Under the pieces are notes generated by a model, which saw only the letters and a program-made list of their open reading frames with translations, made no database searches and was not told the DNA's origin. Source: Bacteroidota bacterium (lineage in GTDB: Bacteria > Bacteroidota > Rhodothermia > Rhodothermales > UBA10348). Taken from it: 64,000 bases of DNA. This document shows positions 11,883 to 30,356 of this stretch, piece by piece (positions within the stretch are counted from its first letter, which is position 1; each line of letters begins with the position of its first letter). Location: the NCBI GenBank assembly GCA_022567305.1, contig JADFHF010000011.1, positions 1-64,000 of the forward strand, written 5' to 3'. A program made the translations under genes and the position numbers.

Positions 11883-13310
11883 ATGAAATTCGATAAAGTC
11901 GTTACTGGCGGCACCGTTGTTACGCCGAGTGGAACCGTTGTGGCCGACATCGGCATCGTTGGAGAAAAAATCGAAGCCATTGGAACAGATCTAGGCGCGG
12001 CAGCAAACGGTGCCACCCGGATCGACGCCTCCGGACATTATGTCATTCCGGGGGTTCTCGACGTCCACGTGCATCTCGCCTTGCCGTTTTGCGGCACCGT
12101 TTCTTCCGATGATTATCTAAGCGGTACCCGCGCTGCCGCCCGCGGTGGCGTTACGACACTCGTTGATTTCGCCATTCCGTACGAGGGCGATTCCCTCAGT
12201 GATGCCGCGGATAACTGGCACAAGAGGGCCGAAGGAAAGTCCCTCATCGACTACACGTTTCATATCTGCATCACCCGTTGGGACGAGCACAAGGATCAGA
12301 TAGAAGGCATGATCGAACGCGGTTTCTCTACGTTCAAGGAATTCATGATCTATGAATCGGAAGGCTGGCAATCGGACGATCGAGCCTTGTTCGGCACACT
12401 CGAGAAAATGAAAGAGCATGGCACTATGCTGCTGGTGCACGCTGAATCAGCTCGGGTATTGGATGAACTCATCGAGCGGCATCACACGCCGGAGCTGATG
12501 GCGAAGCATGGCGCCAATCTTCATGCCATGACGCGACCGAATTTTATCGAAGCTGAAGCCATTCAGCGCGCTATCATGTGGAGCGAGATTACGGGCGGAC
12601 AGCTGTATATCGTTCATATGTCCACCGAAGAAGGAGCCGAGCTCGTAAAATCCGCCCAGATGAGAGGCGTCCCCGTCCTCGCAGAAACGTGTGCCCAATA
12701 TCTGGTGTTGGACGATTCCGTCTTCGATCAGGAGGACGGGCATCTGTTTGCGTGCTGTCCCCAGGTCAAGAAACAGACGGACTCGCTTCGCCTTTGGAAA
12801 GGCATGAGAAGCGGCGAAGTGTCGGTCGTATCGACGGACACCTGCACTTTTACGCGCGAACAAAAAGCGATGTGGGAAGGTGATTGGACCAAGATCCCGA
12901 TGGGTCTTCCCGGACTGGAAACCCTACTACCGATCGTTTACACCCACGGGGTACGGTTCGGACGAATATCCATCGAGGAAATGTGTCGATTGCTCAGTAC
13001 CAACCCGGCGCAGATCATGGGGCTGTTTCCGAAGAAGGGGGCGATTCAGGTCGGCGCGGATGCTGATCTGGCCATTGTTCACCCGACTCACGAAATCACC
13101 ATTGATCCGGCCGAAATGGAGACCAATGCCGATTGGTCGCCGTATGAAGGCTGGTCCTTGGCTGGGTTTTCCCGAACGACGCTTTCGCGCGGCGATGTCA
13201 TTGTAGACGACTATCGAGTCGTAGGAAAAGCTGGCAGAGGTAAGTGGCTCCCTCGGAAGAAGGCCGGATTGGCGCGCACCGAGTCCGAAACTAAAATGTC
13301 TGAAGCATAA
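11883..13310 (+). CDS. hydA: Dihydropyrimidinase
   Basis: Opens the ring of 5,6-dihydrouracil or dihydrothymine to give the N-carbamoyl beta-amino acid, the second step of the pathway. It is a cytoplasmic binuclear-zinc amidohydrolase. The DVHVHL motif (H62, H64), carboxylated lysine K152 in STFKEFMIYES, metal-binding histidines in LLVHAES and YIVHMST, and the D in VVSTDTC are all visible. I prefer the ATG at 11883 (475 residues) over an in-frame GTG at 11871, since the family starts directly with a beta-strand like MKFDKVVTGGTVVT. Allantoinase/hydantoinase are the alternatives, but the operon context favours dihydropyrimidinase. Confidence 0.94.
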   Translation: MKFDKVVTGGTVVTPSGTVVADIGIVGEKIEAIGTDLGAAANGATRIDASGHYVIPGVLDVHVHLALPFCGTVSSDDYLSGTRAAARGGVTTLVDFAIPYEGDSLSDAADNWHKRAEGKSLIDYTFHICITRWDEHKDQIEGMIERGFSTFKEFMIYESEGWQSDDRALFGTLEKMKEHGTMLLVHAESARVLDELIERHHTPELMAKHGANLHAMTRPNFIEAEAIQRAIMWSEITGGQLYIVHMSTEEGAELVKSAQMRGVPVLAETCAQYLVLDDSVFDQEDGHLFACCPQVKKQTDSLRLWKGMRSGEVSVVSTDTCTFTREQKAMWEGDWTKIPMGLPGLETLLPIVYTHGVRFGRISIEEMCRLLSTNPAQIMGLFPKKGAIQVGADADLAIVHPTHEITIDPAEMETNADWSPYEGWSLAGFSRTTLSRGDVIVDDYRVVGKAGRGKWLPRKKAGLARTESETKMSEA

Positions 13311-29818: not shown

Positions 29819-29889
29819 AGGTGACGGACGGATTCGAACCGTCGTACAGGGTTTTGCAGACCCTTGCCTAGCCACTCGGCCACGTCACC
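29819..29889 (-). tRNA. tRNA-Cys (GCA)
   Basis: A 71-nt tRNA cloverleaf on the minus strand. The acceptor GGTGACG pairs with CGTCACC, the anticodon loop is CTGCAAA giving anticodon GCA, the T arm is GACGGTTCGAATCCGTC, and the discriminator base is U, as expected for cysteine tRNA. No CCA is encoded. Last gene before the terminator. Confidence 0.95.
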
Positions 29890-29931: not shown

Positions 29932-30210
29932 TACGCCCGGCAGGACTCGAACCTGCAACCTGCGGATTAGCGTACCACTACGACTTTCGTCGCCACCGCT
30001 GACGCGGCTTTGTGGTCTGGACCATCTCTTCACCGTCTCAGGTGCGGCGCGTATGGCCTCTACGGATCCCCGCGAAGGTTTCCTCGGGATTGCCACCGTC
30101 AAGTTCGCTGAGGTTTCCCCGATACAGCGCCGTCCACTCTACAAATTCCTGTTTCTCTGCAGAGGCTCCTTTTTGAAGTCCGCCGCTCTCTCCAGTTGAG
30201 CTACGGGCGC
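29932..30210 (-). tRNA. tRNA-Arg (UCU) interrupted by a group I intron
   Basis: The two exons are 30176-30210 (35 nt) and 29932-29970. Joined, they form a tRNA with acceptor GCGCCCG, D arm AGCTCAACTGGAGAGAGC, anticodon stem GCGGA/TCCGC, loop CTTCTAA (anticodon UCU, decoding AGA/AGG) and T arm GCAGGTTCGAGTCCTGC. The first acceptor pair is G-U. Without removal of the intron the anticodon loop would read CTTCAAA (UCA) and the 3' half would not fold. The break lies directly after U34. No CCA is encoded. Confidence 0.93.
29971..30175 (-). ncRNA. Group I self-splicing intron in tRNA-Arg(UCU)
   Basis: A 205-nt intron. P1 pairs the exon end GGACUU with GAGCCU, placing the U-G wobble at the 5' splice site, and the last intron base is G. 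Counting from the intron start, P2 is 12-18/33-39, P3 is CGGCGC 44-49 with GCGCCG 126-131, P7 is GGCCAU 118-123 with AUGGUC 151-156, and P8 is CACC 132-135 with GGUG 142-145. A GAC-GAAA-GUC hairpin closes P9. Core segments (CGGGGAAACCU, GGCAAUCCCGAG, GAUGGUCCAGA) parallel the subgroup IC3 introns of Azoarcus and cyanobacterial tRNAs. It encodes no endonuclease. Confidence 0.9.
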
Positions 30211-30281: not shown

Positions 30282-30356
30282 TCGGGGTGGCAGGATTCGA
30301 ACCTGCGACCTTCTGCTCCCAAAGCAGACGCGCTAACCGAGCTGCGCTACACCCCG
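30282..30356 (-). tRNA. tRNA-Pro (UGG)
   Basis: A 75-nt tRNA on the minus strand. The acceptor CGGGGTG pairs with CACCCCG, the anticodon loop is CTTTGGG (anticodon TGG), the T arm is GCAGGTTCGAATCCTGC, and the discriminator is A. Lies 43 bp after the DUF4295 gene and 71 bp before tRNA-Arg, in the same transcript. Confidence 0.95.

Follow-up and report, generated by a model that had tools for sequence, protein, structure and literature searches.

How does a bacterium read AGA codons when the only gene found for the corresponding tRNA is interrupted within its anticodon loop? This question is raised by a tRNA-Arg(UCU) gene in a stretch of 64,000 nucleotides (hereafter, the window; positions 1 to 64,000 of contig JADFHF010000011.1, assembly GCA_022567305.1) from a Bacteroidota bacterium of the order Rhodothermales, a relative of Longimonas halophila. 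An original prediction, made from the sequence alone, described two tRNA halves separated after U34 by a 205-nt group I intron, in a Bacteroidota-like genome. The host assignment is correct, the exon boundaries are borne out to the base, and comparison with homologous introns indicates that the insert, which interrupts the anticodon loop of the sole tRNA-Arg(UCU) gene found in this genome, is very probably an autocatalytic group I intron.

The insert and its catalytic core

The first exon ends in ...GCGGACTT at 30176 and the second begins with CTAATCCGC... at 29970; the 205 nt between them (30175-29971) are thus inserted after U34, at the site which we denote 34/35. When joined, the exons are identified by ARAGORN as tRNA-Arg(tct), and both pair into a canonical cloverleaf. 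The unspliced gene in place is missed both by ARAGORN and by the Rfam tRNA model at its gathering threshold, as had been foreseen for an ordinary tRNA scan. With introns allowed, ARAGORN mis-joined the exons, returning Leu(caa) for the window gene and Ser, Asn or Leu for several relatives, and brute-force splicing with the same program over many cut points gave many spurious anticodons; host tRNAs were therefore read by eye, from the pairing at the splice sites.

We regard covariation in homologues as decisive for group I identity. In an alignment by sequence of nine Rhodothermales introns, from which inserts in the P6 loop were trimmed, 93.8% of cells are paired and 25 pairs are changed on both sides; the covariation score is 0.370, against 0.190 +/- 0.015 in shuffles (0 of 500 reach it), and pairing falls to 32-41% when the partners are slid. 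When 39 introns were aligned to our model R1, pairing stood at 94.5% and 44 of 54 pairs were changed on both sides, again with 0 of 500 shuffles reaching this level. Lack of P3/P7 covariance in homologues had been named as grounds for rejecting the intron; in these 39 homologues, P3 is 100% and P7 98.2% paired. The support for P7 is not circular, because R1 omits this helix, a pseudoknot. As the window sequence is among those that make up R1, its own R1 score is not independent; both introns of an uncultured phage (LR756508.1, described below) lie outside the training set and match the model (E = 6e-52 and 9e-49).

It is this homology with covariation, and not helix topology or folding score, that sets the insert above chance. 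Thirty-two places in the window satisfy a loose P3-P4-P7 topology rule, and helix matching alone was therefore dropped as evidence; the folding z-score of the insert is -1.9 (1.9 standard deviations below shuffles), by default folding, which is unable to show a pseudoknot.

The structural elements are collected in Table 1. P3, P4, P6, P7 and P8 form the catalytic core expected of a group I intron, with a P3/P7 pseudoknot, and the terminal guanosine and bulged P7 with a predicted guanosine-binding G-C pair are likewise in place; this pair (G30058-C30020) and the outer G-C pair of P7 are invariant in 39 sequences. The small core, the absence of P5abc, the simple hairpin P5 and the GNRA-capped P9 are IC3-like features, in a lineage separate from that of the classical tRNA introns. 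All the marks cited in the original prediction (the U-G pair in P1, the final G, P3, P7 and P8, and a GAAA-capped P9) were located, and its reading of the insert as a group I intron is supported.

Table 1. Features of the split tRNA-Arg(UCU) gene, its intron and its neighbours in the window
Feature	Span	Strand	Remarks
tRNA-Arg(UCU) 5' exon, positions 1 to U34	30176..30210	-	
Group I intron, 205 nt	29971..30175	-	
tRNA-Arg(UCU) 3' exon, C35 to discriminator	29932..29970	-	CCA not encoded
P1, CUU 30178-30176 with GAG 30168-30166	30166..30178	-	U34-G pair; invariant in 9/9 Rhodothermales Arg introns
P10 5' strand 30170-30169, with C35-U36 (29970-29969) of 3' exon		-	two pairs, invariant
P2 hairpin, 30164-30156/30145-30137	30137..30164	-	both-side changes in 8/9 pairs
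P3, 5' strand CGGCGC 30132-30127, 3' strand GCGCCG 30050-30045		-	100% paired; 6/6 pairs changed on both sides
P4, 30122-30118/30088-30084	30084..30122	-	encloses P5, 30113-30110/30096-30093
P6 hairpin, 30083-30077/30069-30064	30064..30083	-	loop of only a few nt; holds endonuclease gene in relatives
P7, 30060-30053/30025-30019		-	bulged A 30059; 98.2% paired
Predicted guanosine-binding pair in P7, G30058-C30020		-	
P8 hairpin, CACC-UGAGAC-GGUG, 30044-30041/30034-30031	30031..30044	-	
P9.0/P9 domain	29974..30016	-	P9, 30016-30012/29978-29974
P9b, CGAC-GAAA-GUCG	29992-29981	-	GAAA-capped; 100% paired; 3/4 pairs changed on both sides
Terminal guanosine of intron	29971	-	invariant
tRNA-Pro(UGG), upstream neighbour	30282..30356	-	conserved tRNA cluster
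tRNA-Cys(GCA), downstream neighbour	29819..29889	-	conserved tRNA cluster

A protein-spliced tRNA intron of the bulge-helix-bulge type would share the location in the anticodon loop, which is common to both intron classes. Such an intron is nevertheless extremely improbable here, given the insertion after U34, the length of 205 nt, the group I core with its covarying P3/P7 pseudoknot and the bacterial host; bacterial tRNA introns have been described as self-splicing group I introns (PMC4033280).

We infer the mechanism of splicing from the intron family, the pairings themselves having been demonstrated. The split gene would presumably be co-transcribed with the tRNA-Pro and tRNA-Cys genes with which it forms a minus-strand cluster. 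The RNA would fold around P3-P8, and a guanosine bound in P7 would attack the chain behind U34, at the U-G pair of P1. Next, U34, now free, would attack behind the terminal G while P10 keeps the 3' exon in place, and joining of the exons would yield the anticodon UCU.

Several points weigh against autocatalytic splicing of the only UCU tRNA gene. In the Infernal check that had been proposed, RF00028 matches 30185-29993 (minus strand; E = 5.6e-4); the match itself speaks for a group I intron, but its score of 23.3 bits lies below the Rfam gathering cut-off of 50 bits, which is a curated threshold and not a biological property. P1 consists of three pairs only, followed by a mismatch, and the pairing of P9a is poor across homologues. 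Several of the relatives are metagenome-assembled genomes (MAGs). Finally, the assembly comprises 115 contigs and is 95.6% complete, so that an intact UCU copy may have gone unseen.

AGA decoding and the orthologous loci

A second intact tRNA-Arg(UCU), which would have undermined the original prediction, was not found among the 42 tRNA hits of the genome; tRNA-Arg(CCU) and tRNA-Arg(CCG) are present. AGA accounts for 6.1 per 1000 codons and for 10.6% of arginine codons (30 open reading frames of the window). Also not seen in the tRNA set were tRNA-Arg(ACG), tRNA-Ile(GAU) and tRNA-Ala(UGC); introns may hide these genes too, or they may belong to rRNA regions that are masked or missing.

These data bear on a rival reading, that of a tRNA pseudogene in decay whose insert has no function, with AGA left to another tRNA. 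As the genome is incomplete, and Arg(ACG) and Ile(GAU) are unseen as well, the missing second copy is no proof to the contrary. Decay is nonetheless very unlikely: the exons form a canonical cloverleaf, the ribozyme core has been kept by compensatory changes, and this arrangement is retained in 15 genomes of the order, which have no contiguous full-length match to tRNA-Arg(UCU).

The genomes of relatives, with which comparison had been advised, allow the intron to be set against its empty site (genomes, loci, families and genera are cited by our labels G, L, f and g). The Pro-Arg-Cys cluster is shared by five sister genomes (G009, G013, G015, G001 and G007), whose tRNA-Arg(UCU) at the orthologous locus is uninterrupted; in six others (G021, G014, G018, G008, G005 and G038, the last of which is probably Salinibacter ruber) the intron is present in the Arg gene of the cluster, again flanked by Pro and Cys. 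Among 114 Rhodothermales genomes, 15 have an Arg(UCU) intron at 34/35 (six of family f1 and nine of f13, including Longimonas halophila), and 16 genomes of f15 and f11 have a different intron at 36/37 of the same tRNA. A contiguous full-length match to tRNA-Arg(UCU) occurs in about 57 of the 114, a count in which anticodons were not read individually.

Other tRNA genes of the order are interrupted as well. Introns of tRNA-Leu(UAA) lie at 34/35 in genus g22, presumably Salinibacter (L199, L198, L172, L190, L202), and apparently at 33/34 in three f1 genomes (L174, L177, L200), and several of these genomes have a Leu(UAA) intron alongside that of Arg(UCU). Family f15 has group I introns in three tRNAs at once: Arg(UCU) at 36/37, Lys(UUU) at 34/35 (L039, L046, L049) and fMet at 33/34 (L045, L047, L048).

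Descent and mobility of the intron

An unrooted tree of 51 intron cores (143 sites) splits into two lineages with 100% ultrafast bootstrap. Lineage one holds the introns of tRNA-Leu(UAA), fMet and actinobacterial Lys(UUU), the 36/37 Arg(UCU) introns of f15 and f11, and one further Arg(UCU) intron (G444). Lineage two comprises the window intron together with nearly all Arg(UCU) introns at 34/35, a 36/37 Arg intron from G360, and the Lys(UUU) introns found in f15 and in one Microbacteriaceae MAG.

The split bears on whether the insert arose, in this lineage, by a jump of the classical tRNA-Leu(UAA) intron into tRNA-Arg(UCU); it would still be a group I intron, and its descent alone would differ. 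Insertion site and 5' exon sequence (GGACUU) are common to both genes, several genomes of the order carry both introns, and the Arg(UCU) intron of G444 is of the Leu type, so that such jumps seem to occur. We nonetheless give this history only a small chance, as the fully supported split separates the window intron from the order's Leu(UAA) introns, and the two differ in J3/4 and in the sequence joining P6 to P7. The Leu(UAA) introns resemble the window intron in small size, in the U-G pair of P1 and in their presence at 34/35 in the same order, but belong to another lineage and host tRNA. The cyanobacterial tRNA-Leu intron is inserted after U34; the original prediction was thus right to equate the two sites, but a common lineage with the Leu(UAA) introns of this order does not follow. 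Small group I introns of the anticodon loop are also known from tRNA-Ile(CAU) of Azoarcus and tRNA-Arg(CCU) of Agrobacterium, in both cases after position 36; when added to the tree, the Azoarcus intron falls in lineage one beside the 36/37 Arg(UCU) introns of f15 and f11, and not with the window intron.

Within lineage two, f1 introns occur in two places, one group standing next to those of the distant Bacteroidota G219 and G376 (89% support); horizontal movement of the intron is therefore most likely. Presence and absence at one site among sister species, together with a tree incongruent with that of the hosts, is the pattern expected of a mobile intron. In seven relatives the P6 loop contains an open frame, with a core of 135-137 aa alike in all; the four frames that were scanned all match PF11645 (PD-(D/E)XK, I-SspI-like). 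A profile of the seven matches I-SspI (PDB 2ost; E = 9.7e-4), the endonuclease of the Synechocystis tRNA-fMet intron, which differs from the window intron in its host tRNA and in having an endonuclease; phmmer with a single endonuclease found no relative in PDB. No such frame is present in the 205-nt insert, and PF11645 has no match in the genome of the organism, nor in 14 control genomes. Recognisable remnants of the endonuclease remain in the introns of G014 and G005, and G018 has a shorter insert.

The window intron would thus descend from a mobile element, in whose relatives the PD-(D/E)XK homing endonuclease presumably cuts the anticodon region of intronless genes. The endonuclease-free copy may have been retained because AGA decoding would depend on exact removal of the intron.

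Further introns were observed outside this group. An RF00028 search of the whole genome of the organism, which missed the window intron even at E = 10, picked up instead a group I intron in the 23S rRNA gene (43.6 bits; G000:C50, L050:2789-3208, minus strand); its 139-aa frame resembles a single-motif LAGLIDADG endonuclease (WITGFVDGEGCF). Actinobacteria (Microbacterium, Prauserella, Frankiales and Phytoactinopolyspora) have tRNA-Lys(UUU) introns of the classical lineage after U34 (L056, L057, L058, L059, L060, L063, L064, L066, L067, L072, L077). Two introns on plasmids were identified by eye: one of classical type after position 36 of tRNA-Thr(UGU) on the 1.26-Mb plasmid NZ_CP015231.1 of Tritonibacter mobilis (L219:1275-1600), and a classical 34/35 group I intron in tRNA-Leu(UAA) on the Bradyrhizobium conjugative plasmid CP094621.1 (L220:1325-1615).

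Phage relatives and earlier reports

The lineage of the window intron is also found in other Bacteroidota, in one Schekmanbacteria MAG and in about 18 viral contigs. The tRNA-Arg(UCU) intron of the Ca. Schekmanbacteria MAG lies at L071:3409-3742 (minus strand), and another, cut by the contig end, was seen in a Bdellovibrionales MAG (L053:1-178, minus strand). Among phage records, a blastn search found LR756508.1, from an uncultured phage; its 484 kb include genes for a tail sheath, a DNA polymerase and a helicase, and 16 tRNAs lie within the first 50 kb. Two nearby tRNAs, Lys(UUU) and Arg(UCU), are split by introns of the window lineage (L218:1500-1768 and L218:1901-2147; about 12080-12730 of the record). 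Scanning IMG/VR for a motif yielded 33 contigs, of which R1 confirmed nearly all; the intron lies at 34/35 of tRNA-Arg(UCU) in about 18 and within Lys(UUU) in three. These contigs are predictions, and single cases may be cellular. In one viral contig the intron stands beside phage-type ribonucleotide reductase, thymidylate synthase and primase-helicase genes and has an HNH endonuclease frame. An HNH frame, in place of the PD-(D/E)XK type, in the tRNA-Arg intron region of a viral contig (L250:8968-9465, minus strand) suggests that endonuclease genes have been exchanged between introns. In a second tree, which is of low resolution and whose supports were not read, the introns of phages are interspersed with those of bacteria.

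From these relatives we infer a phage-to-host route for the intron. We give an even chance to a fuller account, in which a distinct mobile lineage, with the anticodon loops of tRNA-Arg(UCU) (and tRNA-Lys(UUU)) as its special target, would have spread among Bacteroidota and other bacteria via the tRNA genes of large phages, through cycles of endonuclease gain and loss, with the window copy as an endonuclease-free end state.

The group I intron is genuine, but UCU as host isoacceptor is not new, contrary to its description as unusual: interrupted tRNA-Arg-TCT genes have been reported in Beggiatoa BOGUAY and Ca. Thiomargarita nelsonii, which also have an interrupted tRNA-Leu-TAA (PMC4853749). These hosts are Gammaproteobacteria, and the likeness is one of host tRNA, as described in a paper that gives neither the structure nor the subtype of the introns. 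Reviews place bacterial tRNA group I introns in cyanobacteria and in alpha- and betaproteobacteria (PMC4033280), the tRNAscan-SE 2.0 paper lists 36 genomes with fMet or Ile2 tRNAs hidden by introns (PMC8450103), and according to a 2014 review every phage intron then known was in a protein gene (PMC3984707). In the open-licence literature we found no report of such introns in Rhodothermales, Bacteroidota or phage tRNA genes.

The wider intron family thus offers a natural series at one orthologous locus, with the endonuclease present, eroded or lost and the site empty. Of greatest interest is the reservoir of phage tRNA genes: introns in phage tRNA genes make phage-to-host movement of tRNA introns directly testable, and a site shared across bacteria and phages makes tRNA-Arg(UCU) a common target of a mobile ribozyme. 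For the organism, a tRNA gene needed for AGA decoding would rely on a ribozyme and is missed by standard annotation, and Rhodothermales genomes seem to have no such gene.
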